Below, piece by piece: positions 19,010-58,005 of a DNA stretch of 64,000 nt. The notes below the pieces were generated by a model. The model worked only from the letters and a program-made list of their open reading frames with translations, had not been told where the DNA came from and did not search any database. A program made the position numbers and the translations under genes. The stretch is taken from contig NC_134828.1 of the NCBI RefSeq assembly GCF_004210375.1, positions 21,196,400 through 21,260,399 of the forward strand, given 5' to 3'. This DNA is from Tachypleus tridentatus. Lineage: Eukaryota > Arthropoda > Merostomata > Xiphosura > Limulidae. Numbering within the stretch: the first letter of the stretch is position 1; the number at the start of each line of letters is the position of its first letter.

Positions 19010-22000
19010 TACTTCGTTCCAGTTACGTGTCTTGAAACTCTAATCACCAACAAAGGTCAGCGTCTTGAAACTCTAACTATCAACAAAATCAGCGTCTTGA
19101 AATTCTAATCACCAACAAAGTTCAGAGTTTTGAGACTGTAATCACCAACAAGGTCAGCATCTTGAAACTCTAATCACTAAAGGTCAAAAGGTCACCATCG
19201 TCTTGAAAACTGTAATCATCGTCTTGAAACTCTAATCACCAAAAGGTCAGCGTCTTGAAACTCTGATCACTAACAAGGTCACCGTCTTGAAACTCTAATC
19301 ACCAACAAAGGTCAGCGTCTTGAAACTCTAATCACTAACAAGGTCATCGTCTTGAAACTCTAATCACCAACAAAGGTCAGCGTCTTGAAACTCTAATCAC
19401 GTCAACCAAACAAAGTAAATCTCTTGAAACTCGAATCATCAACAAAGGTCAGCGTCTTGAAACTCTAATCACCAACAAAGGTCACCGTCTTGAAACTCTA
19501 ATCACCAACAAAGGTCAGCGTCTTGAAACTCTAATCACCAACAAAAACTGTAATCACCAACAAAGGTCAATGTCTTCAAACTTTAATCACCAACAAAGGT
19601 CAGCGATTTGAAACTCTAATCACCAACAAGGTCAGTGTCTTGAAACTCTAAAAATCAGGTCAATCACTTTAATCACCAACAAAGGTCAGCGTCTTGAAAC
19701 TCTAATCACCAACACAGGTCAGCGTCTTGAAACTCTAATCACCAACAAAGGTCAAGCGTGTTGAAACTCTAATCACCAACAAGGTCAGCGTCTTGAAACT
19801 CTAATCACCAACAAAGGTCAGCGTCTTGAAACTCTAATCACCAACAAAGGTCAGCGTCTTGAAACTCTAATCACCAACAAGGTCAGCGTCTTGTAAACTC
19901 TAATCACTCTAAACAAAGGTCAGCGTCTTGAAACTCTAATCACCAACAAAAGGTCAAGCGTCTTGAAACTCTAATCACTAACAAAGGTCAGCGTCTTGAA
20001 ACTCTAATCACCAACAAAGGTCAGCGTCAATGTCTTGAAACCCTCTAATCACCAACAAAGATCAGCGTCTTGAAACTCTAATCACCAGCGTCTTGAAACT
20101 CTAATCAGCGTCTTGAAACTCTAATCACCAACTTGAAAGGTCAGCGTCTTGAAACTCTAACTATCACAAAAATCAGCGTCTTGAAATTCTAATCACCAAC
20201 AAAGGTCAGAGCGTCTTGAAACTGTAATCACCAACAAAGGTCAGCGTCTTGAAACTCTAATCACCAAAAAGGTCACCGTCTTGAAACTGTAATCACCAAC
20301 AAAGGTCAGCGTCTTGAAACTCTAATCACTACCAACTTGAAAGGTCATCGTCTTGAAACTCTAATCACCAACAAAGGTCATCGTCTTGAAACTCTAATCA
20401 CTAACAAGGTCATCGTCTTGTCTAACAAAGGTCAGGAGTCTTGAAAGTCTAAAGGTCAGCGTCTTGAAACTCTAATCACCAACAAAGGTCAATGTGTTGA
20501 AAATCTAATCACCAACAAAGGTCAGCGTCTTGAAACTGTAAGCATCAACAAAGGTCAGCGTCTTGAAACTCTAATCACTAACAAAGATCAGCGTCATGAA
20601 ACTCTAATCACCAACAAAGGTCAGCGTCTTCAAAATCTAATCACCAAAAAAGGTCAGCGTCTTAAAACTCTAATCACCAACACAGGTCAGCGTCTTGAAA
20701 CTCTAATCACCAACAAAGGTCAATGTCTTAAAAGTCTAATCACCAACAAAGGTCAATGACTTGAAACTCTAATCACCAACAAAGGTCAATGTCTTAAAAC
20801 TCTAATCACTAAAAAATGTCAGCGTCTTCCGAATCTAATCACCAACAAAGGTCAGCGTCTTAAAACTCTAATCACTAACACAGGTCAGCGTCTTGAAACT
20901 GTAATCACTAACAAAGGTCAACGTCTTAAAACTCTAATCACCAAAAAAGGTCAGCGTCTTAAAACTGTAATCACCAACAAAGGTCAGCGCCTTAAAACTC
21001 TAATCACCAACAAAGGGCAGCGTCTTGAAACTCTGGTCACCAACCTAGGACAGCGACTTGAAACTCTAATCACTAACAAGGGTCAGCGTCTAGAAACTCT
21101 AATCACAAACAAAGGTCAGCGTCTTGAAACTCTAATCACAAACAAAGGTCAGCCTCTTGAAACTCTAATCACAAACAAAGGTCAGTGTCTTGAAACTCTA
21201 ATCACCAACAAAGGTCAGCGTCTTGAAACTCTAACTATCAACAAAAATCAGCGTCTTGAAATTCTAATAACCAACAAAGTTCAGAGTTTTGAGACTGTAA
21301 TCACCAACAAAGGTCAGCATCTTGAAACTCTAATCACTAAAAAAGGTCACCGTCTTGAAACTGTAATCACCAACAAAGGTCATCGTCTTGAAACTCTGAT
21401 CACTAACAAAGGTCATCGTCTTGAAACTCTAATCACCAACAAAGGTCAGCATCTTGAAACTCTAATCACTAAAAAAGGTCACCGTCTTGAAACTGTAATC
21501 ACCAACAAAGGTCATCGTCTTGAAACTCTGATCACTAACAAAGGTCATCGTCTTGAAACTCTAATCACCAACAAAGGTCAGCGTCTTGAAACTCTAATCA
21601 CTAACAAAGGTCAGAGTCTTGAAAGTCTAATCACCAGCAAAGGTCAGCGTCTTGAAACTCTAATCACCAACAAAGGTCAATCTCTTCAAACACTAATCAC
21701 CAACAAAGGTCAGCGTCATGAAACTCTAATCACCAACAAAATCAATGTCTTGAAACTCTAATCACCAACAAAGGTCAATGTCTTGAAACTCTAATCACCA
21801 ACAAAGGTCAGCGTCTTGAAATTCTAAGCATAAACACAGGTCAGCGTCTTGAAACTCTAATCACTAACAAAGGTGAGCGTATTGAAACTCTAATCACCAA
21901 CAAAGGTCAGCGTCTTGAAACTCTAATCACCAACAAAGGTCAGCGTCTTGAAACTCTAATCACCAACAAAGGTCAATGTCTTCAAACTTTAATCACCAAC

Positions 22001-25000
22001 AAAGGTCAGCGTCTTGAAACTCTAAGCATAAACAAAAGTCAGCATCTTGAAACTCTAATCAATAACAAAGGTCAGCGTCTTGAAACTCTAATCACCAACA
22101 AAGGACAGCGTCTTGAAACTCTAATCACCAACAAAGGTCAGCGTCTTGAAACTCTAATCACCAACAAAGGTCAATGTCTTCAAACTCTAATCACCAACAA
22201 AGGTCAGCGTCTTGAAACTCTAATCACCAACAAAGGTCAATGTCTTGAAACTCTAATCACCAACAAAGGTCAATGTCTTGAAACTCTAATCACCAACAAA
22301 GGTCAGCGTCTTGAAACTCTAAGCATAAACACAGGTCAGCGTCTTGAATCTCTAATCAATAACAAAGGTGAGCGTATTGAAACTCTAATCACCAACAAAG
22401 ATCAACTTCTTGAAACTGTAATCACCAACAAAGGTGAGCGTCTTGAAACTCTAATCACCAACAAAGGTGAGCGTCTTGAAACTCTAATCACCAACAAAGG
22501 TCAGCGTCTTAAAACTCTAATCACCAACAAAGGTCAGCGTCTTGAAACTCTAATCACAAACAAAGGTCAGCGTCTTGAAACTCTAAGCATAAACAAAAGT
22601 CAGCATCTTGAAACTCTAATCAATAACAAAGGTCAGCGTTTTTATACTCTAATCACCAACAAAGGTCAGCGTCTTGAAACTCTAATCACCAACAAAGGTC
22701 AATGTCTTCAAACCCTAATCACCAACAAAGGTCAATGTCTTCAAACTCTAATCACCAACAAAGGTCAGCGTCTTGAAACTCTAATCACCAACAAAGGTCA
22801 ATGTGTTGAAAATCTAATCACCAACAAAGGTCAGCGTCTTGAAACTGTAAGCATCAACAAAGGTCAGCGTCTTGAAACTCTAATCACTAAAAAAGGTCAC
22901 CGTCTTGAAACTGTAATCACCAACAAAGGTCATCGTCTTGAAACTCTGATCGCTAACAAAGGTCATCGTCTTGAAACTCTAATCACCAGCAAAGGTCAGC
23001 GTCTTGAAACTCTAATCACCAACAAAGGTCAATGTGTTGAAAATCTAATCACCAACAAAGGTCAGCGTCTTGAAACTGTAAGCATCAACAAAGGTCAGCG
23101 TCTTGAAACTCTAATCACTAACAAAGATAAGCGTCATGAAACTCTAATCACCAACAAAGGTCAGCGTCTTCAAACTGTAATCACCAACAAAGGTCAGCGT
23201 CTTCAAAATCTAATCACCAACAAAGGTCAGTGTCTTCAAAATCTAATCACCAAAAAAGGTCAGCGTTTTAAAACTCTAATCACCAACACAGGTCAGCGTC
23301 TTGAAACTCTAATCACCAACAAAGGTCAATGTCTTAAAAGTCTAATCACCAACAAAGGTCAATGTCTTGAAACTCTAATCACCAACAAAGGTCAATGTCT
23401 TAAAACTCTAATCACTAAAAAATGTCAGCGTATTCAAAATCTAATCACCGACAAAGGTCAGCGTCTTAAAACTCTAATCACTAACACATGTCAGCGTATT
23501 GAAACTCTAATCACCAAAAAAGGTCAGCGTCTTAAAACTCTAATCACCAACAAAGGTCAGCGCCTTAAAACTCTAATCACCAACAAAGGGCAGCGTCTTC
23601 AAACTCTGGTCACTAACCTAGGACAGCGACTTGAAACTCTAATCACTAACAAGGGTCAGCGTCTAGAAACTCTAATCACCAACAAAGGTCAGCGTCTTGA
23701 AACTCTAACTATCAACAAAAATCAGCGTCTTGAAATTCTAATAACCAACAAAGTTCAGAGTTTTGAGACTGTAATCACCAACAAAGGTCAGCGTCTTGAA
23801 ACTCTAATCACTAAAAAAGGTCACCGTCTTGAAACTGTAAGCATCAACAAAGATCAGCGTCTTGAAACTCTAATCACTAACAAAGATCAGCGTCATGAAA
23901 CTCTAATCACCAACAAAGGTCAGCGTCTTGAAACTCTAACTATCAACAAAAATCAGCGTCTTGAAATTCTAATAACCAACAAAGTTCAGAGTTTTGAGAC
24001 TGTAATCACCAACAAAGGTCAGCGTCTTGAAACTCTAATCACTAAAAAAGGTCACCGTCTTGAAACTGTAATCACCAACAAAGGTCATCGTCTTGAAACT
24101 CTGATCACTAACAAAGGTCATCGTCTTGAAACTCTAATCACCAACAAAGGTCATTGTCTTGAAACTCTAATCACTAACAAAGGTCAGAGTCTTGAAAGTC
24201 TAATCACCAATAAAGGTCAGCGTCTTGAAACTCTAATCACCAACAAAGGTCAATGTGTTGAAAATCTAATCACCAACACAGGTCAGCGTCTTGAAACTCT
24301 AATCACCAACAAAGGTCAATGTCTTAAAAGTCTAATCACCAACAAAGGTCAATGTCTTGAAACTCTAATCACCAACAAAGGTCAATGTCTTAAAACTCTA
24401 ATCACTAAAAAATGTCAGCGTCTTCAAAATCTAATCACCAACAAAGGTCAGCGTCTTAAAACTCTAATCACTAACACAGGTCAGCGTCTTGAAACTGTAA
24501 TCACTAACAAAGGTCAACGTCTTAAAACTCTAATCACCAAAAAAGGTCAGCGTCTTAAAACTGTAATCACCAACAAAGGTCAGCGCCTTAAAACTCTAAT
24601 CACCAACAAAGGGCAGCGTCTTGAAACTCTGGTCACCAACCTAGGACAGCGACTTGAAACTCTAATCACTAACAAGGGTCAGCGTCTAGAAACTCTAATC
24701 ACAAACAAAGGTCAGCTCTTGAAACTCTAATCACAAACAAAGGTCAGTGTCTTGAAACTCTAATCACCAACAAAGGTCAGCGTCTTGAAACTCTAACTAT
24801 CAACAAAAATCAGCGTCTTGAAATTCTAATAACCAACAAAGTTCAGAGTTTTGAGACTGTAATCACCAACAAAGGTCAGCATGTTGAAACTCTAATCACT
24901 AAAAAAGGTCACCGTCTTGAAACTGTAATCACCAACAAAGGTCATCGTCTTGAAACTCTGATCACTAACAAAGGTCATCGTCTTGAAACTCTAATCACCA

Positions 25001-25160
25001 ACAAAGGTCAGCGTCTTGAAACTCTAATCACCAACAAAGGTCAGCGTCTTGAAACTCTAATCACCAAGAAAGGTCAGCGTCTTGAAACTCTAATCACTTA
25101 CAAAGGTCAGCGACTTGAAACTCGAAGCACCAACAAAGATCAGCGTCTTGAAACTCTAAC
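19010..25160. repeat. 33-bp minisatellite, left copy (~185 units)
   Basis: Unit CACCAACAAAGGTCAGCGTC TTGAAACTCTAAT with common variants (CAATGTC, CATCGTC, CACCGTC; CTAAGCATAAAC; CTAACTATCAAC). Higher-order blocks of several units repeat within it. The first ~1.4 kb (to about 20460) is ragged with many indels; after that units are almost all 33 bp. The frame of NKGQRLETLIT is open across long stretches but without in-frame ATG. There are no unique spacers between units, so it is not CRISPR-like. Degenerates at the right end into unique sequence at about 25160. Confidence 0.95.
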
Positions 25161-25688
25161 ATTTTACTTTTAATTCTAACTAATCACCCTTCACCTGTTT
25201 CCTTGATGAAATATTTCACAAAATTTATGTAAATTTGTGTTTCGCGAAGTGTTAAACTGAGAGACAATCGTATAATTAGTTTAAATCTATTTTAGTTTGA
25301 TTTCCCCGTTGTTCATTTGATTCATGTTGTCTCTAAAGAGTCGCTCGTGCCATCAATTCTTTGAAAAAAATCGTTTGCAGGTTGATGCACGTTACTGGCA
25401 TTTCGGAAACGACCACATCAAATAGAACTCGAAACGTAAACACAAATTACTTGATTCTTTTGAAGAATAAAAATAATTTTCCTTTGACATATTAATGGTC
25501 GTCATTGTTTTCAAACAAAGTATGCTTCACTTTTTTTAATAATTGAATGACAATTTTAGAAAACTAAATGTTGTCCTTTTGTTTGTCTCTTGTTGATTAC
25601 TCTATCGACAAACTGTGGTGTTTCGATCAAACTCCGATTTGATATTTATAAACCTTCACAGTTAATGATAAAACAAACACAAACGTGA
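25161..25688. other. Unique arm sequence
   Basis: No coding or repeat recognised; repeated inverted at about 53720-54205. Confidence 0.5.
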
Positions 25689-26100
25689 TAATAGGAAATA
25701 TTTATTAAATGTTTGGGAATCCTCAAAATAAAACATAATTTAATGATAAAACAAAACACAAACGTGATAACAGGAAACATTTGTTAAATGTTTGGGAATC
25801 CTCACAATAAGATATAATAATAAAACAAAAGCACAAACGTGGTAACAGGAAACATTTATTAAATGTTTGGGAATCCTCATAATAAAACATAATAATAAAA
25901 CAAAGCACAAAGGTGATAACATGAAACATTTATTAAATGTTTGGGAATCCTCAAAATAAAATATAATAATAAAACAAAGTACAAACAGAGATAACAGGAA
26001 ACATTTATTAAATGTTTGGGAATCATCAAAATAAAACATAACTTAATGATAAAACAAAGCACAAGTGTGAAAACAGGAAACATTTATTAAATGTGTGGGA
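25689..26100. repeat. ~75-bp minisatellite, about 6 units (left copy)
   Basis: Units contain AAACAGGAAACATTTATTAA-type sequence, then ATGTTTGGGAATCCTCA and ATAATAAAACAAAGCACAAA. Each unit holds the near-palindrome AAACATTTATTAAATGTTT. Overlapping frames on the minus strand come only from the repeat. Confidence 0.9.
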
Positions 26101-26859
26101 ATTCTCACAATTTCATCATCAGTAACGTGGGATAGAAAACAAGCAAATAATATTTGTAATTACAACAGAATAATTACAACACACAAGAATAAAGAACTTG
26201 AATATATAATTATAAGTTGAGGAAACGAAAATGTGGCACGACTGAAATAGTCAAATGAAATGGAGGTTAAATATAGTGAATACTGTGTAATATTTAATGA
26301 TGAAGCAGAGTTTTTTTATGTACAACGTTTCTTTACCTTTAGGTCACGTAGCGGCCTTTGCTAACCTACAAGACATAGGTTTTTCTGTAGGATTTCTGCA
26401 TCAATAGAGTTCTCAAGTGAAAGTACAAACACATTGTTGATGGTTCACTTTTAAGTTTTATTTAACCATCTCATAGTGTAGATACCAGAAGTTGTGTTGA
26501 AAAGTTATATTTAGCCTATTTTCAAATGGGGTGTTCTGACTTTCAATATGATGTACAGCCAATAAAATCACTTTTAGCAGCGACTTGTTGCTGTTTCCCA
26601 ATAACTTTTGATGTGGTAATTAATCAACACAGGCAGAACCACAGTTTTTATCAACAAACTCATACTAACGTCACGCGCTTCCTGGCGCTAACATCGTAAG
26701 GTTTAGTTTTGACGTCTTTTCAATGTCAGAGTAAAAGTATTACTTTTAATTGTCTCACTAGCACGAGGGTTGATTACATTTGAGACAATATTTGAAATGT
26801 TAGACCCTCTTCCAGCAGAATGGTTCTGTTTTAATTCAAAAAAAAGTATTCTCGTCAGT
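26101..26859. other. Unique arm sequence
   Basis: No exon recognised; mirrored at about 52510-53270. Confidence 0.5.
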
Positions 26860-28430
26860 ATTAAATCTCTACAGGATAGCACAAGTTTGGTGGAGTTCTT
26901 TACTGGTATACAGATATTTCCTTAAATCTCTAAGGATAGTAATAGTTTAGTGGAGTTCTTTACCGATATACAGATATTTCCTTAAATCTCTAAAGGATAG
27001 TATTAGTTTGGTGGAGTTCTTTACTGGTATACAGATATTTCCTTAAATCTTTAAAGGATAGTACTAGTTTTGTGGAGTTCTTTTCTCGTATTCAGATATT
27101 TCCTTAAATCTCTAAAAGATAGTACTAGTTTAGTGGAGCTCTTTACTAGTATACAGATATTTCCTTTAAATCACTAAAGGATAGTACTAGTTTAGTGGAG
27201 TTCTTTACTGGTATACAGATATTTCCTTAAATCTCTAAAGGACAGTACTAGTTTAGTGGAGTTCTTTACTGGTATACAGATATTTCCTTAAATTTCTACA
27301 GGATAGTACTAGTTTAGTGGAGATCTTTACTGGTATACAGATATTTCCTTAAATCTCACAAGGACAGTACTAGTTTAGTGGAGTTCTTTACTGGTATACA
27401 GATATTTCCTTAAATCTCTAAAGGTTAGTACTAGCTTTGTGGAGTTCTTTTACTGGTATACAGATATTTCCTTAAATCTCTAAAGGACAGTACTAGTTTA
27501 GTGGAGTTCTTTACTGGTATACAGATATTTCCTTAAATCTCTAAGGTTAGTACTAGCTTTGTGGAGTTCTTTACTGGTATACAGATATTTCCTTAAATCT
27601 CTACAGGATAGTAGTAGTTTAGTGGAGTTCTTTTCTCGTATTCAGATATTTCCTTAAATCTCAAAAGATAGTACTAGTTTAGTGGGTTCTTTACTGAGTA
27701 TACAGATATTTCCTTTAAATCACTAAAGGATAGTACTAGTTTAGTAAAGTTCTTTTCTCGTATTCAGATAGTTCCTTAAATCTCTAAGGATAGTACTAGT
27801 TTAGTGGAGTTCTTTACTGGTATACAGATATTTTCTTAAATCTCTAAAGGAGAGTACTAGTTTAGTGGAGTTCTTTACTGGTATACAGATAGTTCCTTAA
27901 ATCTCTAAGGATAGCACTAGTTTAGTGGAGTTCTTTACTGGTATACAGATAGTTTTTAAATCTCTAAGGATAGCACTAGTTTAGAGGAGTTCTTTACTGG
28001 TATACAGATATTTCCTTAAATCTCTACAGGATACTACTAGTTTAGTGGAGTTCTTTTCTGGTACACAGATATTTCCTTAAATCTCTAAAGGATAGTACTA
28101 GGTTAGTGGAGTTCTTTACTGGTATACAGATATTTCCTTAAATCTCTACAGGATAGTACTAGTTTAGTGGAGATCTTTACTGGTATACAGATATTTCCTT
28201 TAAATCTCTACAGGAGTTTAGTGGAGTTCTTTACTGGTATACAGATAGTTCCTTAAATCTCTAAAGGATAGTACTAGTTTAGTGGAGTTCTTTACTGGCA
28301 TACAGATAGTTCCTTAAATCTCTAAAGGATAGTACTAGTTTAGTGGAGTTCTTTACTGGTATACAGGTATTTCCTTAAATCTCTACAGGAGTTTAGTGGA
28401 GTTCTTTACTGGTATACAGATACTTCCTAA
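26860..28430. repeat. ~59-bp minisatellite, about 26 units (left copy)
   Basis: Unit: CTCTAAAGGATAGTACTAGT, TTAGTGGAGTTCTTTACTGG, TATACAGATATTTCCTTAAAT. Shortened units (lacking the GATAGTACTAG part) occur near 28210 and 28385. The right-arm copy is about 0.35 kb shorter. Confidence 0.92.
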
Positions 28431-29222
28431 TTTTTACGAAGTGTATGTACTGTTTACAAATCTTGGGTTTGAGGCTGAGTGAAACCATGTTGTTGGATTA
28501 TACGGACTGTGAACCTGATGGTTAATGATTCACCGTACAAACAAACATGTTCACACTTTACGCCCATGAGTGCACTTTTCAAGTGTCGGTCCAATCCAAA
28601 TATTTTGTCAAACAAAATAACAGTAGCCTGAGATTTGGTGGCGAGTGCTGCTTTCTCTCCTGTCTATCAGGTCAAAAATTAAAGAGTGCTATACGTAGGT
28701 AACCCCTTTTGTAACCTTGCATGAAAATACGAGACAAAATGTAGTTCGCAAACTGTGTTTCATAAAGTTTCAAGCAAAACATTTTACTCTTGAATATACA
28801 GAAGTGACAAGTATTGTTACTGATATCTAAAGAATTACCCTAATTTGGTTCAAATTTATTAAGTTTCAATCTCCTCAGTGTGGGTTTCTTAAAGATTTAA
28901 GAATGAAGTCTCCATGAGAAATCTCAGACTAATTTAAATTTCGTTAATAAATATAATACTGCCGGCAGCTGAACAGTAAATATAAGGGCTTAAGAATGCT
29001 AAATTTCAGGGTTCACTCCTGTAGAAATACAATGAGGATGGACCATTGTGAATCTCTATGCTTAAAGTAAGTAAACAATGTTATTTTATAGATTGTTCTT
29101 CTGAAGCAGACTACTACAGTTATAAATGTCTCGTTATTGTATACATTTTGGTGACGTCACTTACAGTAGACTTACAAACTTAACCCAACCTAGGAATTGG
29201 TCATCAGTTTTTAATATCTTAC
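28431..29222. other. Intron-like unique arm sequence
   Basis: No exon recognised; lies downstream of the minus-strand PDZ exon. Confidence 0.5.
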
Positions 29223-29323
29223 CAAATAGGTGTCATTTCCCCCTGTGACACTAATCCCCAGTTCATTGTTGTCTTTCTTGAGGACAATAGTTGTATCTAC
29301 AAAATCCTCAATAGTGGTGACAG
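29223..29323 (-). CDS. PDZ-domain exon, left-arm duplicate
   Basis: Minus-strand copy of the exon at 50413-50513, with the same acceptor (aacatccag) and donor (gtaaga). It encodes VTTIEDFVDTTIVLKKDNNE and then LGISVTGGNDTYL, the first beta strands of a PDZ domain with LGISVTGG in place of the carboxylate-binding GLGF loop. 101 nt, 2 + 33 codons. The rest of the PDZ fold is found only on the right side (60499-60783). On this side the sequence runs out of the contig through the minisatellite, so this copy is an orphan exon here. It may be a real duplicate or the second haplotype. Confidence 0.85.
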
Positions 29324-29447
29324 CTGGATGTTGAGAAAAAAATACAAATGTTGTTATTGTTCATGGAAAAATGAAAAAAAATAATTATACAGTTTCATAA
29401 AACTGAAACTAAAAGAAAACTGCAACAAATTTAACTATGAATAACTG

Positions 29448-29598
29448 TAAATTATCTAGAGTTCGAAACGTGAAGTACATACAAACTGTATATTATCTGA
29501 GTTCGAAACGTGAAGTACATACAAACTGTAAATTATCTAGAGTTTGGAACGTGAAGTACATACAAACTGTAAATTATCTAGAGTTCGAAACGTGAAGT
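29448..29598. repeat. ~40-bp tandem repeat, 4 units (left arm only)
   Basis: Units AACTGTAAATTATCTAGAGT and TCGAAACGTGAAGTACATAC. The mirror site at about 50260-50300 has a single unit. Confidence 0.9.
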
Positions 29599-30694
29599 AC
29601 ACCTTTTTTATTTCATTACTTTGACTTTCAAAACACGTTAGCGAAACACTGTAGTATCAATCTTTTATTAGAGATTTAATTTCCTATTATTGTAATAAAC
29701 ATGGATGTTTTTAAATAACAGGATATTTAATACTTTTATGTGAGATAACCTTGAGGTTTTATTTATCCCCATACATGTGGTGTTGATCAGAACTTTTAAA
29801 ATATCTTGAATCAGACTAAACATGCGAAAAGTACGAAAACACTTGAAAATATCACTATCACAAATATACTAAGTACCCTTACCATTTATGACGCGAGGTT
29901 ACTTTCATAACTCTAGTTAAGGTTTCTGGTTATTATTGCTATTTGTAAGTGACACACTTTAATGACTGTTACCAAAGCCTTAAAACTCTCTTAACAATAG
30001 TTATCGTTTATTCCTTACTATGTGATATTTAAATATTTATCTCAAAATTTTATTCACGCACCACAATGACCCACAAAACTGGAACCACATCAGGTCCTCT
30101 AAAACTTGATTCGTGGACTGTATTATTAAACATTGCATACTAAACAAAACTCTATTTAAGGAATAATGTATTCATCAAGAAACACATTTTCAGCCTGACT
30201 TACGCGGCCATCATCTGAAAAATCACAGGAGTTACTGGTCTACAATGTTTTTCAAAGCAAAAACTATTTAAATGGCAAAACTGTAATTTGATAACCCCCA
30301 AACCAAATTCGTTCTAGTATTTATTGCAACTATAAAACTTATACAAGCCAAGTAATATTGGCAATAAAAACTTACTGAATTCTAGTTTTACATAATATGA
30401 AGTTTCATAAAGCAACTTTGTTCTTCAGTTATACAGAACAGACTTCATTACAGAATGAAATGCACAATGTTTTGTTCCACATTACTTAATACTTCGACTG
30501 ACCATGTATCACTTCTCTCAAGCCAACACCATTTGCCACTGATGGCTTCTTCCAAATGTGATCGAACTTCCACGTTTTTAACCTAACGAGTCTTTTTCTG
30601 TCCATTAGCTCTTAGGAAACGAAACTGTAGTTCTAACAAACACAAATTTTGTTGCTCAAAATGTTGGTGCTTACACTCTTATCGTCGTAATTTT
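29599..30694. other. Unique arm sequence
   Basis: AT-rich, no exon recognised; lies upstream of the minus-strand PDZ exon. Confidence 0.5.
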
Positions 30695-30705
30695 ACAAAA
30701 AATGA

Positions 30706-30982: not shown

Positions 30983-30994
30983 TACAAAAAATGA

Positions 30995-32945: not shown

Positions 32946-32949
32946 ATAT

Positions 32950-33374: not shown

Positions 33375-33386
33375 AAGTCAATAAAG

Positions 33387-33656: not shown

Positions 33657-33668
33657 AAGTCAATAAAG

Positions 33669-46443: not shown

Positions 46444-46712
46444 GACCGTCATAGCCAGATGGTTAGGGCGCTCGACTTGTATGAGGGCCACAGGTTCAAA
46501 TCCTCGTCGTACTAAACATGCTCGCTCTTTCACTCAAAATGATGTTATAACGTGACGATCAATCTCACTATTCGTTGGTAAAAGAGTAGTCCAAGAGTTG
46601 CGGTGGGTGGTGATGACTAGCTGCCTACCCTCTAGTTTTACACTGCTAAATTCGGGACGGCTAACGCAGGTTGCTCTCGTGTAGCTTTGCGCAAAATTCA
46701 AAAACAAAGAAA
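46444..46712 (+). mobile_element. tRNA-derived SINE (family A), right-arm copy
   Basis: Mirror of 33387-33656, flanked by CTTTATTGACTT on both sides. Confidence 0.9.
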
Positions 46713-47069
46713 CTTTATTGACTTCGCGCGTTATTACTAAGTGTATCGTTTGGCTAATTGTACTGCTGGTGTTAAATTCTTGTCTCACTCAGAAAGTCAC
46801 GCTAATAGAAATACCTGACATCTAGAACTTAAAGTAAAGTAACAACAAATGAAAGTGATGTGAACAAAGAGGTGAACACCACGAAACCTCAAACTGTTGT
46901 TAAACATAACCGCCACACAATCAGCCAACCAACTTCTCAAGAAATGTAACAGTTGTTTACATCTGAACTAGTAATTTAGGGAGAGTTTACCTAAATATGG
47001 AAGTTTTTAATGAGTTTTAGTTATTAAAAACAGTTTCCCTCTCTCTTATCTGGTACACATCAGATCTCA
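46713..47069. other. Unique arm sequence
   Basis: Mirror of 33031-33374. Confidence 0.4.
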
Positions 47070-47145
47070 TTCACTAATCCCCATTAATAGCACAGCGGTA
47101 TGTTTAAGAACATACAACGCTAGGAACCGGGTTTTGATACTAGTT
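47070..47145 (+). mobile_element. tRNA-like SINE (family C), head fragment, right copy
   Basis: AATAGCACAGCGGTATGTTT, ACAACGCTAGGAACCGGGTT, TTGATACT. Confidence 0.65.
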
Positions 47146-47149
47146 GTTA

Positions 47150-47515
47150 TATATATAGTTATATATATAACTATATATTTGTATGTACATATATACAGAC
47201 AGATTGCATAACTATATATTTGTATGTATATATAGAGAGACAGATTGCATAACTATATATTTGTATGTATATATAAAGAGACAGATTGCATAACTATATA
47301 TTTGTATGTATATATAGAGAGACAGATTGCATAACTATATATTTGTATGTATATATAAAGAGACAGATTGCATAACTATATATTTGTATGTATATATATA
47401 TAGACAGATTGCATTACTATATATTTGTATGTATATATATAGAGACAGATTGCATAACTATATATTTGTATGTACATATATAGAGACAGATTGCATAACT
47501 ATATATTTCTATATA
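47150..47515. repeat. AT-rich ~58-bp minisatellite, 7-8 units (right copy)
   Basis: Mirror of 32630-32945 but with more units (ATATTTGTATGTATATATAG, AGACAGATTGCATAACTAT). Short frames on the plus strand are repeat artefacts. Confidence 0.9.
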
Positions 47516-47679
47516 TTTTTAGCATGGCGGCCTTTCTAGTCTCGCTGATTTCCTTCAACAGTAGGTTTTTCACACAAACGGCGTCATTAGCTGTGTTTTG
47601 CAGTACGGTCGATTTATTTTGGGGATATATGATGAAATTTATACTTTGGTATAAGAAGTAAGTTTATCAGTTATTAAAC

Positions 47680-48425
47680 AACTTCTTACCAACTCAATGA
47701 AGAAAAAACTGTATGAATGGGGTCTGAAATACAAGAACTGGACGCAAGAACAATGGAGGAAGGTGTTATTCAGTGAGTAAACTCATTTATTCGTACAGGG
47801 TCAAAGAAGTCTGCATGTTCGCAGATCTCCAGGTGAGAAACTTCGGGAATATTACATCAATCAGTTCGTAAAACATCCCTTGAAGAAGATGTTTTGGGGC
47901 TTTTTCAGCTGCTATTGCGTCGGAGGCTTACATGTCGTAGAAGGTATGAGGCGAGGACCACAGTACATCGAAGTTTTGCAGAGAAGAGTCGTTCCAGAAT
48001 TGAAAAAGAGATTTCCAGATGGATCTGGCATTTTTCAGCAAGATCTGGCTCCGTGCCACAAATCTAAACTTCTGAAGAATTTTATGACTAAAACGCGAAT
48101 AAAGGTGCTGGACTGGCTTGGAAACTCTCCGGACTTAAATCCTATTGAAAATCTTTGAGCGATTTGTAAAGAAAGTCTTCGGGGAAAATATTATACTACG
48201 AAAGATAAGCTAATTGAGGTGTGGTACCGCAATCCAAAAATTAGTAAAGATTACAGTCAACTCGTGGATTCAATGACAAAGCGGAGTAATGATCTTCTGA
48301 AAAATAAAGGCCGTCATATCATGTATTAATTTGTGAGTAATTTTTGGATTCTCAGAAATAAAACGCAAAAAATTGAAAAATCGTAATTTTCTGTCTTGTT
48401 TCAATTAATTTGCACAAGGGTGTGA
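47680..48425 (+). pseudogene. Tc1-type transposase remnant (DD34E), right copy
   Basis: Plus-strand mirror of 31725-32470. From QLLTNSMKKKLYEWGLKYKN (linker after the HTH domain, itself absent) through KNWTQEQWRKVLFSE-stop, MFWGFFSCYCVGGLHVVEGM, FQQDLAPCHKSK, LDWLGNSPDLNPIENL, TGA in place of the Trp codon, and on to NDLLKNKGRHIMY and a stop near 48329. Both arms share the same disabling changes, so the element was dead before the arms separated. Terminal sequence AATTTGCACAAGGGTGTGA near 48410-48425; no 5' partner. Confidence 0.85.
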
Positions 48426-48614
48426 TTGCCAAAGTCAAAACTTTAATGCGAAGTCAGCTGGCCTTGTAGGAAGTAATAAAACCATTGGAGAGGTTACACT
48501 CTGTTTGACCTTTGGTAACGAATCCAGTAAGTTTATCAGAAAATTTAGATAACGTATAAAAAATATTGAAGAGCTAGAAACTGGTTTCATAGAGACGTGA
48601 GAAAAATTATCTGG

Positions 48615-48750
48615 AGATTAGGTTTGATTATTTTAAGCACAAGACTATGCAATGGGATATCTATGATATGCCCAACATAGGTATCAAAATCCGACTTTTT
48701 TAGTATGGAAATTCTGCAAAATTACCGTTAAACCACTGGAGGGCGTTCTA
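48615..48750 (-). mobile_element. tRNA-like SINE (family C), right copy
   Basis: Mirror of 31399-31530. Confidence 0.75.
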
Positions 48751-50412
48751 AAGAGAAAAGTGAAGATCTACAAGGGTGCAATAAGTTATCAATAGTTAGG
48801 CTTAGGAAGAGGCAGGTGGTCATAGAATCAAATGTTAACTCTGAAAATAAATCTGATTTCACACTTTTAAAGTTCTCGTCCATTGTCAGATAAAGTGATT
48901 TCAATCGCATGTTAGAAGTATGTACTATTAAAGCTATAATTTTAAAGAGCCATACATGTAAGCTTAATTATGAATGTATGTATTTTGAAATACCAATGTC
49001 TTCTGAAAGTAAGTTCATGAGATTTTCTAGTTATCATTACATTACCTTAATTTAAACTACTGTTTTAACAGGTTTTCTTTTATTTTTACATTCCAATTAC
49101 GATTTTTTTTATAAATTCACGCTTTTACGTGAATAACAGAAGCGTATTGCTTCATTTTTTGTAAAATTACGACGATAAGAGTGTAAGCACCAACATTTTG
49201 AGCAACAAAATTTGTGTTTGTTAGAACTACAGTTTCGTTCCCTAAGAGCTAATGGACAGAAAAAGACTCGTTAGGTTAAAAACGTGGAAGTTCGATCACA
49301 TTTGGAAGAAGCCATCAGTGGCAAATGGTGTTGGCTTGAGAGAAGTGATACATGGTCAGTCGAAGTATTAAGTAATGTGGAACAAAACATTGTGCATTTC
49401 ATTCTGTAATGAAGTCTGTTCTGTATAACTGAAGAACAAAGTTGCTTTATGAAACTTCATATTATGTAAAACTAGAATTCAGTAAGTTTTTATTGCCAAT
49501 ATTACTTGGCTTGTATAAGTTTTATAGTTGCAATAAATACTAGAACGAATTTGGTTTGGGGGTTATCAAATTACAGTTTTGCCATTTAAATAGTTTTTGC
49601 TTTGAAAAACATTGTAGACCAGTAACTCCTGTGATTTTTCAGATGATGGCCGCGTAAGTCAGGCTGAAAATGTGTTTCTTGATGAATACATTATTCCTTA
49701 AATAGAGTTTTGTTTAGTATGCAATGTTTAATAATACAGTCCACGAATCAAGTTTTAGAGGACCTGATGTGGTTCCAGTGTTGTGGGTCATTGTGGTGCG
49801 TGAATAAAATTTTGAGATAAATATTTAAATATCACATAGTAAGGAATAAACGATAACTATTGTTAAGAGAGTTTTAAGGCTTTGGTAACAGTCATTAAAG
49901 TGTGTCACTTACAAATAGCAATAATAACCAGAAACCTTAACTAGAGTTATGAAAGTAACCTCGCGTCATAAATGGTAAGGGTACTTAGTATATTTGTGAT
50001 AGTGATATTTTCAAGTGTTTTCGTACTTTTTCGCATGTTTAGTCTGATTCAAGATATTTTAAAAGTTCTGATCAACACCACATGTATGGGGATAAATAAA
50101 ACCTCAAGGTTATCTCACATAAAAGTATTAAATATCCTGTTATTTAAAAACATCCATGTTTATTACAATAATAGGAAATTAAATCTCTAATAAAAGATTG
50201 ATACTACAGTGTTTCGCTAACGTGTTTTGAAAGTCAAAGTAATGAAATAAAAAAGGTGTACTTCACGTTTCGAAATCTAGATAATTTACAGTTATTCATA
50301 GTTAAATTTGTTGCAGTTTTCTTTTAGTTTCAGTTTTATGAAACTGTATAATTATTTTTTTTCATTTTTCCATGAACAATAACAACATTTGTATTTTTTT
50401 CTCAACATCCAG
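48751..50412. other. Unique arm sequence upstream of the PDZ exon
   Basis: Contains the unoccupied SINE site at 49152-49163. No further exon recognised. A 72-codon plus frame at 49972-50190 matches nothing known. Confidence 0.45.
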
Positions 50413-50513
50413 CTGTCACCACTATTGAGGATTTTGTAGATACAACTATTGTCCTCAAGAAAGACAACAATGAACTGGGGATTAGTGTCACAGGGGGAAA
50501 TGACACCTATTTG
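50413..50513 (+). CDS. PDZ-domain scaffold protein, first exon of the last PDZ domain
   Basis: 101-nt exon, acceptor aacatccag, donor gtaaga, encoding VTTIEDFVDTTIVLKKDNNE and LGISVTGGNDTYL. The LGISVTGG block stands at the carboxylate-binding loop (GLGF position) and leads into strand beta B. It ends in phase 0, and the next exon found is 60499-60582, reading EAIVVTDV, which continues the PDZ fold exactly. The intron is about 10 kb and holds four minisatellites and several SINEs. PDZ domains bind C-terminal peptides of membrane and junction proteins. The style GAAFQDGRLKRGDALLA recalls multi-PDZ scaffolds of the MPDZ/PATJ type, but the orthologue is not identified. Confidence 0.88.
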
Positions 50514-51304
50514 GTAAGATATTAAAAACTGATGACCAATTCCTAGGTTGGGTTAAGTTTGTAAGTCTACTGTAAGTGACGTCACCAAAATGTATACAAT
50601 AACGAGACATTTATAACTGTAGTAGTCTGCTTCAGAAGAACAATCTATAAAATAACATTGTTTACTTACTTTAAGCATAGAGATTCACAATGGTCCATCC
50701 TCATTGTATTTCTACAGGAGTGAACCCTGAAATTTAGCATTCTTAAGCCCTTATATTTACTGTTCAGCTGCCGGCAGTATTATATTTATTAACGAAATTT
50801 AAATTAGTCTGAGATTTCTCATGGAGACTTCATTCTTAAATCTTTAAGAAACCCACACTGAGGAGATTGAAACTTAATAAATTTGAACCAAATTAGGGTA
50901 ATTCTTTAGATATCAGTAACAATACTTGTCACTTCTGTATATTCAAGAGTAAAATGTTTTGCTTGAAACTTTATGAAACACAGTTTGCGAACTACATTTT
51001 GTCTCGTATTTTCATGCAAGGTTACAAAAGGGTTACCTACGTATAGCACTCTTTAATTTTTTGACCTGATAGACAGGAGAGAAAGCAGCACTCGCCACCA
51101 AATCTCAGGCTACTGTTATTTTGTTTGACAAAATATTTGGATTGGACCGACACTTGAAAAGTGCACTCATGGGCGTAAAGTGTGAACATGTTTGTTTGTA
51201 CGGTGAATCATTAACCATCAGGTTCACAGTCCGTATAATCCAACAACATGGTTTCACTCAGCCTCAAACCCAAGATTTGTAAACAGTACATACACTTCGT
51301 AAAA
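50514..51304 (+). other. PDZ-gene intron
   Basis: Mirror of 28431-29222; nothing recognised. Confidence 0.5.
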
Positions 51305-52515
51305 ATTAGGAAGTATCTGTATACCAGTAAAGAACTCCACTAAACTCCTGTAGAGATTTAAGGAAATACCTGTATACCAGTAAAGAACTCCACTAAACTA
51401 GTACTATCCTTTAGAGATTTAAGGAACTATCTGTATACCAGTAAAGAACTCCACTAAACTAGTACTATCCTTTAGAGATTTAAGGAACTATCTGTATACC
51501 AGTAAAGAACTCCACTAAACTAGTACTATCCTTTAGAGATTTAAGGAAATATCTGTATACCAGTAAAGAACTCCACTAAACTCCTGTAGAGATTTAAGGA
51601 AATATCTGTATACCAGTAAAGAACTCCACTAAACTAGTACTATCCTGTAGAGATTTAAGGAAATATCTGTATACCAGTAAAGAACTCCACTAAACTAGTA
51701 CTATCCTTTAGAGATTTAAGGAAATATCTGTATACCAGTAAAGAACTCCACTAAACTAGTACTATCCTTTAGAGATTTAAGGAAATATCTGTATACCAGT
51801 AAAGAACTCCACTAAACTAGTGCTATCCTTTAGAGATTTAAAGAACTATCTGTATACCAGTAAAGAACTCCACTAAACTAGTACTATTCTTTAGAGATTT
51901 AAGGAAATATCTGTTTACCAGTAAAGAACTCCACTAAACTAGTACTATCTTTTAGAGATTTAAGGAAATATCTGAATACCAGTAAAGAACTCCACTAAAC
52001 TAGTACTATCCTGTAGAGATTTAAGGAAATATCTGTATACCAGTAAAGAACTCCACTAAACTAGTACTATCCTTTAGAGATTTAAGGAAATATCTGTATA
52101 CCAGTAAAGAACTCCACTAAACTTGTACTGTCCTTTAGAGATTTAAGGAAATATCTGTATACCAGTAAAGAACTCCACTAAACTAGTACTATCCTTTAGA
52201 GATTTAAGGAACTATCTGAATACGAGAAAAGAACTTTACTAAACTAGTACTATCCTTTAGTGATTTAAAGGAAATATCTGTATACCAGTAAAGAACTCCA
52301 CTAAACTAGTACTATCCTTTAGAGATTTAAGGAAATATCTGTATACCAGTAAAGAACTCCACTAAACTAATACTATCCTTTAGAGATTTAAGGAAATATC
52401 TGTATACCAGTAAAGAACTCCACTAAACTATTACTCTCCTTTAGAGATTTAAGGAAATATCTGTATACCAGTAAAGAACTCCACTAAACTTGTGCTATCC
52501 TGTAGAGATTTAATA
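51305..52515. repeat. ~59-bp minisatellite, about 20 units (right copy)
   Basis: Mirror of 26860-28430 with fewer units. Confidence 0.92.
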
Positions 52516-53269
52516 CTGACGAGAATACTTGTTATTTTTTTGAATTAAAACAGAACCATTCTGCTGGAAGAGGGTCTAACATTTCAAATATTGTCTCAAA
52601 TGTAATCAACCCTCGTGCTAGTGAGACAATTAAAAGTAATACTTCTTACTCTGACATTGAAAAGACGTCAAAACTAAAACCTTACGATGTTAGCGCCAGG
52701 AAGCGCGTGACGTTAGTAGGAGTTTGTTGATAAAAACTGTGGCTCCTGCCTGTGTTGATTAATTACCACATCAAAAGCTATTGGGAAACAGCAACAAGTC
52801 GCTGCTAAAAGTGATTTTATTGGCTGTACATCATATTGAAAGTCAGAACACCCCATTTGAAAATAGGCTAAATATAACTTTTCAACACAACTTCTGGTAT
52901 CTACACTTATGAGATGGTTAAATAAAACTTAAAAGTGAACCATCAACAATGTGTTTGTACTTTCACTTGAGAACTCTATTGATGCAGAAATCCTACAGAA
53001 AAACCTATGTCTTGTAGGTTAGCAAAGGCCGCTACGTGACCTAAAGGTAAAGAAACGTTGTACATAAAAACTCTGCTTCATCATTAAATATTACACAGTA
53101 TTCACTATATTTAACCTCCATTTCATTTGACTATTTCAGTTGTGCCACATTATCGTTTCCTCAACTTATAATTATATATTCAAGTTCTTTATTCTTGTGT
53201 GTTGTAATTATTCTGTTGTAATTACAAATATTGTTTGCTTGTTTTCTATCCCACGTTACTGATGATGAA
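52516..53269. other. Unique arm sequence (PDZ intron)
   Basis: Mirror of 26101-26859. Confidence 0.5.
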
Positions 53270-53720
53270 ATTGTGAGAATTCCCACACATTTAATAAATG
53301 TTTCCTGTTTTCACACTTGTGCTTTGTTTTATCATTAAGTTATGTTTTATTTTGATGATTCCCAAACATTTAATAAATGTTTCCTGTTATCTCGTTTGTA
53401 CTTTGTTTTATTATTATATTTTATTTTGAGGATTCCCAAACATTTAATAAATGTTTCATGTTATCACCTTTGTGCTTTGTTTTATTATTATGTTTTATTG
53501 TGAGGATTCCCAAACATTTAATAAATGTTTCCTGTTACCACGTTTGTGCTTTGTTTTATTATTATATCTTATTGTGAGGATTCCCAAACATTTAACAAAT
53601 GTTTCCTGTTATCACGTTTGTGTTTTGTTTTATCATTAAATTATGTTTTATTTTGAGGATTCCCAAACATTTAATAAATGTTTCCTATTATCACGTTTGT
53701 GTTTGTTTTATCATTAACTG
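53270..53720. repeat. ~75-bp minisatellite, about 6 units (right copy)
   Basis: Mirror of 25689-26100, with the near-palindrome AAACATTTAATAAATGTTT in each unit. Confidence 0.9.
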
Positions 53721-54207
53721 TGAAGGTTTATAAATATCAAATCGGAGTTTGATCGAAACACCACAGTTTGTCGATAGAGTAATCAACAAGAGACAAACAA
53801 AAGGACAACATTTAGTTTTCTAAAATTGTCATTCAATTATTAAAAAAGTGAAGCATACTTTGTTTGAAAACAATGACGACCATTAATATGTCAAAGGAAA
53901 ATTATTTTTATTCTTCAAAAGAATCAAGTAATTTGTGTTTACGTTTCGAGTTCTATTTGATGTGGTCGTTTCCGAAATGCCAGTAACGTGCATCAACCTG
54001 CAAACGATTTTTTTCAAAGAATTGATGGCACGAGCGACTCTTTAGAGACAACATGAATCAAATGAACAACGGGGAAATCAAACTAAAATAGATTTAAACT
54101 AATTATACGATTGTCTCTCAGTTTAACACTTGGCGAAACACAAATTTACATAAATTTTGTGAAACATTTCATCAAGGAAACAGGTGAAGGGTGATTAGTT
54201 AGAATTA
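53721..54207. other. Unique arm sequence (PDZ intron)
   Basis: Mirror of 25161-25688. Confidence 0.5.
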
Positions 54208-57200
54208 AAAGTAAAATGTTAGAGTTTCAAGACGCTGATCTTTGTTGTTGCTTCAAGTTTGAAGTCGCTGACCTTTGTAAGTGATTAGAGTTTCAAGACG
54301 CTGACCTTTCTTGGTGATTAGAGTTTCAAGACGCTGACCTTTGCTGGTGATTAGACTTTCAAGACTCTGACCTTTGTTAGTGATTAGAGTTTCAAGACGC
54401 TGACCTTTGTTGGTGATTAGAGTTTCAAGACGATGACCTTTGTTAGTGATCAGAGTTTCAAGACGATGACCTTTGTTGGTGATTACAGTTTCAAGACGGT
54501 GACCTTTTTTAGTGATTAGAGTTTCAAGACGCTGACCTTTGTTGGTGATTACAGTCTCAAAACTCTGAACTTTGTTGGTTATTAGAATTTCAAGACGCTG
54601 ATTTTTGTTGATAGTTAGAGTTTCAAGACGCTGACCTTTGTTGGTGATTAGAGTTTCAAGACACTGACCTTTGTTTGTGATTAGAGTTTCAAAAGGCTGA
54701 CCTTTGTTTGTGATTAGAGTTTCAAGACGCTGACCTTTGTTTGTGATTAGAGTTTCTAGACGCTGACCCTTGTTAGTGATTAGAGTTTCAAGTCGCTGTC
54801 CTTTGTTGGTGACCAGAGTTTGAAGACGCTGACCTTTGTTGGTGATTAGAGTTTTAAGGCGCTGACCTTTGTTGGTGATTAGAGTTTTAAGACGCTGACC
54901 TTTTTTGGTGATTAGAGTTTCAAGACGTTGACCTTTGTTGGTGATTAGAGTTTCAAGACGCTGACCTGTGTTAGTGATTAGAGTTTTAAGACGCTGACCT
55001 TTGTTGGTGATTAGATTTTGAAGACGCTGACATTTTTTAGTGATTAGAGTTTTAAGACATTGACCTTTGTTGGTGATTAGAGTTTCAAGACATTGACCTT
55101 TGTTGGTGATTAGAGTTTCAAGACGCTGACCTGTGTTGGTGATTAGAGTTTTAAGACGCTGACCTTTTTTGGTGATTAGAGTTTGAAGACGCTGACCTTT
55201 GTTGGTGATTAGAGTTTCAAGACGCTGACCTTTGTTGGTGATTAGATTTTCAACACATTGACCTTTGTTAATGATTAGAGTTTCAAGACGCTGACCTTTG
55301 TTGGTGATTAGACTTTCAAGACTCTGACCTTTGTTAGTGATTAGAGTTTCAAGACGATGACCTTTGTTGGTGATTAGAGTTTCAAGACGATGACCTTTGT
55401 TAGTGATCAGAGTTTCAAGACGATGACCTTTGTTGGTGATTACAGTTTCAAGACGCTGACCTTTTTTAGTGATTAGAGTTTCAAGACGCTGACCTTTGTT
55501 GGTGATTAGAGTTTCAAAACTCTGAACTTTGTTGGTGATTAGAATTTCAAGACGCTGATTTTTGTTGATAGTTAGAGTTTCAAGACGCTGACCTTTGTTG
55601 GTGATTAGAGTTTCATGACGCTGATCTTTGTTAGTGATTAGAGTTTCAAGACGCTGACCTTTGTTGATGCTTACAGTTTCAAGACGCTGACCTTTGTTTG
55701 TGATTAGAGTTTCTAGACGCTGACCCTTGTTAGTGATTAGAGTTTCAAGTCGCTGTCCTAGGTTAGTGATTAGAGTTTCAAGACGCTGACCTTTGTTGGT
55801 GATTAGAGTTTCAAGACGCTGACCTTTGTTGGTGATTAGAGTTTCAAGACGCTGACCTTTTTTGGTGATTAGAGTTTCAAGACGCTGACCTTTGTTGGTG
55901 ATTAGAGTTTCAAGACGCTGACCTTTTTTGGTGATTAGAGTTTTAAGACATTGACCTTTGTTGGTGATTAGAGTTTCAAGACATTGACCTTTGTTGGTGA
56001 TTAGAGTTTCAAGACGCTGACCTTTGTTGGTGATTAGAGTTTCAAGACGCTGACCTTTTTTGGTGATTAGAGTTTCAAGACGCTGACCTTTGTTGGTGAT
56101 TAGAGTTTCAAGACGCTGACCTTTGTTGGTGATTAGAGTTTCAAGACGCTGACCTTTGTTAGTGATTAGAGTTTCAAGACGCTGACCTTTGTTGATGATT
56201 AGAGTTTCAAGACGCTGACCTTTGTTGGTGATTAGAGTTTCAAGACATTGACCTTTGTTGGTGATTAGAGTTTCAAGACGCTGACCTTTGTTGGTGATTA
56301 GAGTTTCAAGACGCTGACCTTTGTTAGTGATTAGAGTTTCAAGACGCTGACCTTGTTGGTGATTAGAGTTTCAAGACGCTGACCTTTGTTGGTGATTAGA
56401 GTTTCAAGACGCTGACCTTTGTTGGTGATTAGAGTTTCAAGACGCTGACCTTTGTTAGTGATTAGAGTTTCAAGACGCTGACCTTTGTTGGTGATTAGAG
56501 TTTCAAGACATTGACCTTTGTTGGTGATTAGAGTTTCAAGACATTGACCTTTGTTGGTGATTAGAGTTTCAAGACGCTGACCTTTGTTGGTGATTAGAGT
56601 TTCAAGACGCTGACCTTTGTTGATGCTTAGAGTTTCAAGACGCTGACCTTTGTTGGTGATTAGAGTTTCAAGACGTTGACCTTTGTTGGTGATTAGAGTT
56701 TCAAGACGCTGACCTTTGTTGGTGATTAGAGTTTCAAGACGCTGACCTTTGTTGGTGATTAGAGTTTCAAGACGCTGACCTTTGTTGGTGATTAGAGTTT
56801 CAAGACGCTGACCTTTGTTGGTGATTAGAGTTTCAGGACGCTGACCTTTGTTGGTGATTAGAGTTTGACCTTTGTTGGTGATTAGAGTTTCAAGACGCTG
56901 ACCTTTGTTGGTGATTAGAGTTTCCTGACTTTGTTTGATTAGAGTTTCAAGACGCTGACCTTTGTTGGTGATTAGAGTTTCAAGACATTGACCTTTGTTG
57001 GTGATTAGAGTTTCAAGACGCTGACCTTTGTTGGTGATTAGAGTTTCAAGACGCTGACCTTTGTTGGTGATTAGAGTTTCAAGACGCTGACCTTTGTTGG
57101 TGATTAGAGTTTCAAGACGCTGACCTTTGTTGGTGATTAGAGTTTCAAGACGCTGACCTTTGTTGGTGATTAGAGTTTCAAGACGCTGACCTTTGTTGTT

Positions 57201-58005
57201 GGTGATTAGAGTTTCAAGACGCTGACCTTTGTTGGTGATTAGAGTTTCAAGACGCTGACCTTTGTTGGTGATTAGAGTTTCAAGACGCTGACCTTTGTTG
57301 GTGATTAGAGTTTCAAGACGCTGACCTTTGTTATGATTAGAGTTTCAAGACGCTGACCTTTGTTGGTGATTAGAGTTTCAAGACGCTGACCTTTGTTGGT
57401 GATTAGAGTTTCAAGACGCTGACCTTTGTTGGTGATTAGAGTTTCAAGACGCTGACCTTTGTTGGTGATTAGAGTTTCAAGACGCTGACCTTTGTTTATG
57501 CTTAGAGTTTCAAGACGCTGACCTTTGTTGGTGATTAGAGTTTCAAGACATTGACCTTTGTTGGTGATTAGAGTTTCAAGTCGCTGACCTTGTTGGTGAT
57601 TAGAGTTTCAAGACATTGACCTTTGTTGGTGATTAGAGTTTCAAGACGCTGACCTTTGTTGGTGATTAGAGTTTCAAGACGCTGACCTTTGTTGGTGATT
57701 AGAGTTTCAAGACGCTGACCTTTGTTGGTGATTAGAGTTTCAAGACGCTGACCTTTGTTGGTGATTAGAGTTTCAAGACGCTGACCTTTGTTGGTGATTA
57801 GAGTTTCAAGACGCTGACCTTTGTTGGTGATTAGAGTTTCAAGACGCTGACCTTTGTTGGTGATTAGAGTTTCAAGACGCTGACCTTTGTTGGTGATTAG
57901 AGTTTCAAGACGCTGACCTTTGTTGGTGATTAGAGTTTCAAGAGATTGACCTTTGTTGGTGATTAGAGTTTCAAGACGCTGACACTTGTTGGTGTGTAAC
58001 ATGAC
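54208..58005. repeat. 33-bp minisatellite, right copy (~115 units)
   Basis: Unit GTTTCAAGACGCTGACCTTT GTTGGTGATTAGA. It is more homogeneous toward 56000-58000, where many units are identical, and more varied near 54200-55700. The minus strand has an ATG-started frame of 144 codons (57568-58002) made only of the 11-residue repeat QRLETLITNKG. It ends sharply at about 58005 into unique sequence. Confidence 0.95.

Follow-up and report, generated by a model that had tools for sequence, protein, structure and literature searches.

A large and probably genuine palindrome around a truncated LKB1 copy in the horseshoe crab Tachypleus tridentatus

A stretch of 64,000 nucleotides in the horseshoe crab Tachypleus tridentatus (C4:21196400-21260399, here called the window; the assembly comprises 2.167 Gb in 205 contigs) contains two long inverted arms on either side of a short, asymmetric spacer. 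This palindrome is probably real. Our preferred reading, to which we assign a probability of about 0.82, is that of a real large palindrome in which a duplicated segment from the LKB1 side, together with a truncated piece of LKB1, was copied head-to-head onto itself, and the centre of which was later trimmed. The arms and their junctions, the LKB1 exons, the markers that the arms share and a second palindrome on the same scaffold can all be read directly from the sequence. The horseshoe-crab origin is borne out by the Coagulin family, which is not known to occur in other animals: it matches at C11:9.016-9.022 Mb, in four pieces over positions 1-70 and 75-174 of 174, and has a match in 0 of 14 control genomes.

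Architecture and divergence of the arms

The left and right arms in the window are named WL and WR, and those of the second palindrome PL and PR. The window palindrome is laid out as follows, with the strand in brackets:

18510-19009 (no strand): scaffold gap of 500 N, which cuts the outer end of WL
19010-38714 (+): left arm WL, as assembled (self-BLAST)
19029-25159 (+): 33-bp minisatellite array, left (TRF)
26861-28428 (+): 61-bp minisatellite array, left (TRF)
30694-30994 (+): SINE-like insertion in WL, bounded by 12-bp target-site duplicates at 30694-30705 and 30983-30994; the empty site in WR is 49152-49163
38715-41435 (no strand): asymmetric spacer of 2721 bp, composed of segments A and B
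41436-57994 (-): right arm WR, the inverted copy (self-BLAST)
51346-52513 (-): 61-bp minisatellite array, right (TRF)
54219-57994 (-): 33-bp minisatellite array, right (TRF)
57995-64000 (+): outer part of the same duplicated unit as the arms

Self-BLAST aligns the arms in collinear inverted matches: 30983-38714 against 49163-41436 (98.1% including gaps, E 0, centre at 40073-40075), 29565-30705 against 50293-49152 (99.65%, E 0) and 27227-29479 against 52513-50257 (95.9%, E 0), beyond which the 33-bp arrays detected by TRF (19029-25159 and 54219-57994) lie outermost. A chance origin of these matches is excluded. Both arms carry the same elements in the same order from the inside outwards, namely about 8 kb with a few short tandem arrays, the SINE site, and then the 61-bp, 75-bp and 33-bp arrays. 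The spacer, at 2.7 kb, is far shorter than the inverted arms that it separates, which measure at least 16.6 and at least 19.7 kb.

A previous sequence-only reading of this DNA had described a palindrome of about 39 kb with two inverted arms, a 2.7-kb spacer, a centre near 40.07 kb and sharp stops of homology at 38714 and 41436. Self-BLAST confirms this layout and both stops, which leave 2721 bp between them. The left limit of 19010 given in that reading needs qualification: since this position is the edge of the N gap, the true outer end of WL is invisible, and because the arms of the second palindrome continue further out, it is the gap that sets WL's apparent limit. The caution expressed over the 500 N is justified for the outer boundary; the centre is free of gaps.

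By substitution the arms are 99.8% identical, a figure that becomes lower when minisatellite arrays and indels are counted. Over 9809 aligned columns (28429-38714 against 51346-41436), WL and WR differ by 18 substitutions, comprising 11 transitions and 7 transversions. The same comparison contains 39 gaps, 31 of them of a single base, from which we judge the assembly to be noisy; the five gaps of at least 10 bases are the SINE and minisatellite units. When all four arms are aligned, within slightly wider limits, WL and WR differ by 23 substitutions in 10009 columns, and the short gaps, which fall mostly in homopolymer runs, may in part reflect faulty base calls. Between the 33-bp and 61-bp arrays, WL and WR show 10 differences in 1696 columns. 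Base changes, repeat numbers and a SINE had been named earlier as differences between the arms; the SINE and the repeat units hold up, whereas the base changes are few and some of the short gaps may be errors of sequencing.

Spacer, junctions and LKB1 exons

Compared with its relatives elsewhere in the assembly, the spacer is a rearranged piece of DNA that otherwise adjoins LKB1, and the centre of the palindrome falls within a truncated STK11/LKB1 copy. The features concerned are:

38385-38643 (+): LKB1 exon with flanking intron in the left arm (259-bp piece), starting at a junction whose two sides are about 19 kb apart in the C4:122 Mb copy
38544-38601 (+): STK11/LKB1 exon, left arm, matching human residues 285-306; splice acceptor and donor seen by eye
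38713-39445 (+): spacer segment A; in canonical copies it is separated from the end of B by about 565 bp and is inverted relative to B
39445-41507 (+): spacer segment B with its 72-bp end; the 72 bp belong to both arms (38643-38714 and 41436-41507)
41549-41606 (-): STK11/LKB1 exon, right arm (tblastn)

What we term the canonical order, B reversed, about 565 bp and then A, is found at six other loci on C4 and C2, and each of these six copies adjoins the last LKB1 exon found. The peptide beside the canonical copies matches STK11/LKB1 structures (8vsu, E 7e-07; 2wtk, E 1e-05). A tblastn search with the human protein sequence as query located LKB1 exons at the six canonical loci and an LKB1 exon in both window arms, on opposite strands. 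The match in the window is weak when taken alone (E 0.05); the same exon sits between neighbouring LKB1 exons at the canonical loci. The last-exon peptide maps to six loci (C4:4.52, 6.36, 7.92 and 122.19 Mb; C2:0.32 and 0.39 Mb; 10 of 10 candidates scored), and only at C4:6.36 and 7.92 Mb is its match uninterrupted over the whole query. Eight places carry the 259-bp exon piece complete or almost complete (8 of 9 candidates scored): the window accounts for two of them, the second palindrome for one and other loci for five, and a sixth other copy was found besides those five. The LKB1 gene region is multiplied in this genome, with several of its copies broken.

The junctions were read by eye, with the C4:122 Mb copy providing the canonical letters and, for 38384/38385, also against five arm copies. 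At 38384/38385 about 19 kb are missing on the scale of the C4:122 copy and there is a 5-bp filler; at 38643/38644 about 5.1 kb are missing, including the next LKB1 exon and a satellite, and 1 bp is shared. Both junctions are present in WL, WR and PR, and because they occur in both window arms and in PR they probably predate the fold-back. The junction at 38714/38715 is confined to the left arm and skips segment B together with the 565 bp, with 2 bp shared; as these are gone from one side alone, this is a secondary, asymmetric deletion of the centre. The junction at 39445 is the inversion itself and links the distal end of A to the beginning of B on the opposite strand. Relative to the six canonical copies it joins opposite strands of a once-contiguous template with little microhomology, as in a fold-back (2 bp shared, by eye, against the C4:122 Mb copy). 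This junction is known from the window only; the second palindrome is without that part. A central transposon with 72-bp terminal inverted repeats was considered and rejected: the 72 bp are single, with no inverted partner found in the three of the six canonical copies examined.

Minisatellites and other repeats make up most of both arms, and no kinase could be made from the LKB1 pieces present here. Inside the palindrome, the open frames of at least 120 aa are those of the minisatellites and of a single weak mariner fragment, and the window yielded neither an Rfam family above its cut-off nor a tRNA; on this content, a giant mobile element or virus is rejected as carrier. A mariner-like DDE_3 fragment in the right arm (47781-48158) scores 24.8 bits, under the Pfam cut-off of 28.6. 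Among five open fragments from the canonical copies, one bears a Mos1 HTH_48 domain (C4:122.19 Mb copy), and the remaining four matched nothing in Pfam at E 1 or below. Outside the palindrome, the window holds a 153-aa frame at 4042-4503 and a kinase exon at 413-547 (tblastn E 0.04), which we take to resemble a member of the PAK family. We expect no molecular function of the palindrome. It is possible in principle that a putative transcript of the spacer would form a hairpin with the LKB1 exon in its stem, feeding small RNAs against the parent gene.

The second palindrome and the dispersed arm unit

The stretch C4:60425001-60445000, which contains no N, is a palindrome of the same arms as those of the window, and its full locus spans about C4:60.41-60.46 Mb. 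Window positions 58000-61000, outside the right arm, match both of its sides, at C4:60415080-60418049 (-) and C4:60461316-60464294 (+). One of its arms reaches at least to the equivalent of window position 63644 and the other at least to that of 61848; the pieces read from its flanks contain no N. The two flanks are 0.12% apart from each other, and 0.38 and 0.50% from the window. The centres of the two palindromes differ. In the second, the position equal to 35419 is followed by 1262 bp and then by segment B from 41047 on. This 1262-bp piece (C4:60.4325 Mb) holds an RVT_1 fragment (37.1 bits against a cut-off of 29.6; the sole other Pfam family listed falls far below cut-off), which, to judge by its motif, is probably of Penelope type. 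A second frame in the piece, with the look of GIY-YIG, had no Pfam match. Of the reverse-transcriptase fragment, 87 bp also match the window at 62750-62835 and 62845-62929. The presence of a second palindrome suggests that the one in the window is real DNA and no mistake of assembly.

Several markers pair the four arms crosswise. The SINE, flanked by an identical 12-bp target duplication, occurs in WL and PR but in neither WR nor PL, and these latter two are the only arms to have lost a 122-bp piece that consists of three 41-bp units. Because one C19 copy, taken as outgroup, is without the SINE and has the 122 bp, the gain of the former and the loss of the latter both look derived. The four-arm alignment contains 47 gap-free variable columns, including 33 singletons (PR 12, PL 12, WL 5, WR 4) and one three-base column. 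Its two-against-two columns group WL with PR and WR with PL at 7, WL with WR and PL with PR at 6, and WL with PL and WR with PR at 0; a few one-base homopolymer gaps show the last of these groupings. The outer block 52520-54215 of WR matches PL at 100%, WL at 99% and PR at 98%. Since the SINE, the 122-bp loss, seven substitutions and the outer block all pair the arms crosswise, a palindrome with two distinguishable arms probably predates the separation of its two copies.

Only 13 columns are informative about pairing and they conflict, 7 against 6; we infer gene conversion for the six. These six columns (WL=WR/PL=PR) and the low divergence of the second palindrome's flanks are hints, at few sites and on small counts, of conversion between arms, which we regard as likely. 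Overall divergence does not follow the cross-pairing: it is lowest for WL-WR (0.30%), followed by WR-PL (0.34), WL-PR (0.40), WR-PR (0.45), PL-PR (0.45) and WL-PL (0.47). When 43 variable columns are rooted with the C19 copy, derived states are common to WR and PL at 5, to WL and PR at 1, to WL and WR at 5 (4, since the bases differ at 30077) and to PL and PR at 1. At 7 further sites WL, WR and PL agree and PR is the only arm with the C19 state, a pattern that suggests exchange with another copy; the remaining columns are single-arm or more complex.

The unit of which the arms are made is dispersed. A 2.1-kb arm probe (28600-30690) matched 26 times, at 22 places distributed over six scaffolds (all 22 candidates scored). 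C4 and C19 have nine places each, and C3, C7, C12 and C14 a single one apiece; the arms of the two palindromes account for four of the total. Divergence over 35500-38384, a stretch that PL is without, was compared between the other three arms and five of the 13 other copies listed as covering it whole: WL, WR and PR are 0.18-0.24% apart, and 1.39-1.56% from the five. The C12 and C19 copies have no substitution between them over about 2.9 kb, which could mean that the unit spread very recently, that homogenisation is strong or that the assembly contains one copy twice, and the C7 copy is 1.43-1.49% from the other four of the five. A head-to-head pair of the unit occurs at a third place, C19:3.72-3.74 Mb. 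Its arms lie at 3722408-3725351 (+) and 3735740-3738683 (-), their outer flanks are mirrored, and the 1.5 kb inside the first match the inside of the second, inverted, at 99.1%; about 7.4 kb lie between the stretches compared.

Other repeats occur in and near the window. Positions 14900-18509, left of the gap, belong to a different dispersed unit, which among the matches listed has long copies at C19:35.2-36.7 Mb and on C8, together with copies of 98% identity that stand in reverse at C4:21.018 and 21.089 Mb. To the right of the window, the matches listed include a satellite-like array with copies about 500 bases apart, at C4:21.308-21.326 Mb (+) and 21.378-21.432 Mb (-), and two matches at 21.682 Mb. 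The two opposite blocks are perhaps another, larger mirror arrangement.

Origin of the palindrome and its counterparts in other genomes

The order of events that we infer begins with a truncated LKB1-linked segment, which would have been copied head-to-head at 39445 to give a palindrome with a spacer that then comprised the 565 bp and A. The 2 bp shared at the fold-back junction, and the 1-2 bp or 5-bp filler at the others, would fit fold-back repair, end joining and template switching alike. Entry of the SINE into one arm and loss of 122 bp of 41-bp units from the other would have marked the arms, and the palindrome would afterwards have come to exist also at C4:60.4 Mb. The unstable centre in the window would then have been trimmed by loss of the left copy of B and of the 565-bp piece, creating the junction at 38714 and leaving the asymmetric spacer of 2.7 kb. 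The centre at C4:60.4 Mb, which holds the reverse-transcriptase fragment, would have been trimmed differently. Gene conversion from arm to arm may keep the arms similar.

One alternative is compatible with head-to-head copying, and we consider it conceivable though rather unlikely: the window locus and the palindrome at C4:60.43 Mb could be two haplotypes of one locus, the latter having been put in the wrong place during scaffolding. Both are on scaffold C4, and their arms pair one to one with 0.34-0.40% substitutions between paired arms. Probes of 1 kb from about 30 kb outside each palindrome had no match near the other one among the matches listed, which argues weakly against misplacement, both probes being repetitive and the first one's own place being absent from those matches. 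The window palindrome would be real even if the two were alleles.

It is doubtful, to a greater degree, that two distant inverted single units were brought together by large deletions of the DNA between them, with no fold-back at all. Inverted pairs of the unit do exist at other places on C19 and C4, and the centre does carry deletions. Both arms nevertheless share the junctions 38384/38385 and 38643/38644 and are 99.8% alike by substitution; independent units would not be expected to have both junctions in common, although strong gene conversion could hide an independent origin.

The sequence-only reading had offered two interpretations, a real inverted duplication and two haplotypes joined head-to-head. 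The former is supported here; the latter, with the assembler joining two haplotypes of one single-arm locus, strikes us as very improbable. The contig does start inside the left arm at the N gap, a place where assemblies err, the 0.18% of substitutions between the arms is a size that haplotypes could have, and WL and WR are the closest pair among the four arms. A single-arm diploid locus, however, supplies at most two arm sequences, and the assembly holds four distinct ones, in two palindromes with different centres and crosswise markers, so that a haplotype join could be upheld only with additional loci and with the same type of false join made twice. The centre also has two sequence-level junctions relative to the canonical copy, for which a join of contig ends has no need. 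Finally, B adjoins the opposite kind of arm in the second palindrome, as if the spacer had been flipped by crossover between the arms; no such flip has to be assumed, however, for an ancestral palindrome that carried B twice, once per side, and from which the two copies suffered different losses.

A palindrome formed by head-to-head copying and trimmed at its centre, as preferred here, is of a known kind, and large palindromes are known from other genomes. The large palindromes of mammalian X and Y chromosomes, P8 among them (PMC6790999, PMC8981503), have long inverted arms more than 99% alike by substitution, a short spacer, gene conversion and structural change, and PMC6790999 deals with the birth and death of a human Y palindrome. 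The palindrome in the window is like these in its long inverted arms, short spacer, identity above 99% by substitution and structural change, and it shows hints of conversion. It is unlike them in belonging to a horseshoe crab, in having mostly non-coding arms of minisatellites and a gene fragment, and in possessing a second copy on the same scaffold.

The ODIRA model predicts an inverted triplication, with an inverted middle copy, that includes a replication origin. Fold-back inverted duplications as presented in PMC10766186 (the ODIRA model, DUP-TRP/INV-DUP) resemble the structure found here in their inverted copies, little microhomology and secondary central deletion that widens the spacer, and the same paper reports secondary deletion of palindrome arms in human inverted variants, with junctions of little microhomology. 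In contrast to these, the present structure occurs in more than one copy in the assembly. Segmental duplications, or low-copy repeats, provide a further parallel, given the 22 places on six scaffolds matched by the arm probe and the 0-1.5% substitution among copies (five others measured); here, unlike there, copies occur in either orientation and minisatellites abound in the unit. Among the papers listed in searches of the open-access literature, none reported horseshoe-crab palindromes, LKB1 copies or the present locus.

A broader idea, which we regard as distinctly unlikely, is that the LKB1-linked segment spreads as inverted pairs, by fold-back, breakage and trimming of the centre and copying of the arms to other chromosomes. 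If it were true, the inverted pairs on C4 and C19 and the substitution-free C12 and C19 copies would be one self-reinforcing amplification process with no transposase. Independently of this, anyone counting LKB1 pieces in this genome should be warned that broken copies are among them.

The large palindromes of the papers cited here are mostly mammalian and sex-chromosomal, and the present one allows base-by-base dissection in a horseshoe crab. The earlier order can be read from six relatives that escaped rearrangement, and the sister palindrome shows which changes probably came before and which after copying. The birth of a palindrome, the trimming of its centre and conversion from arm to arm are in this way opened to study in an invertebrate.
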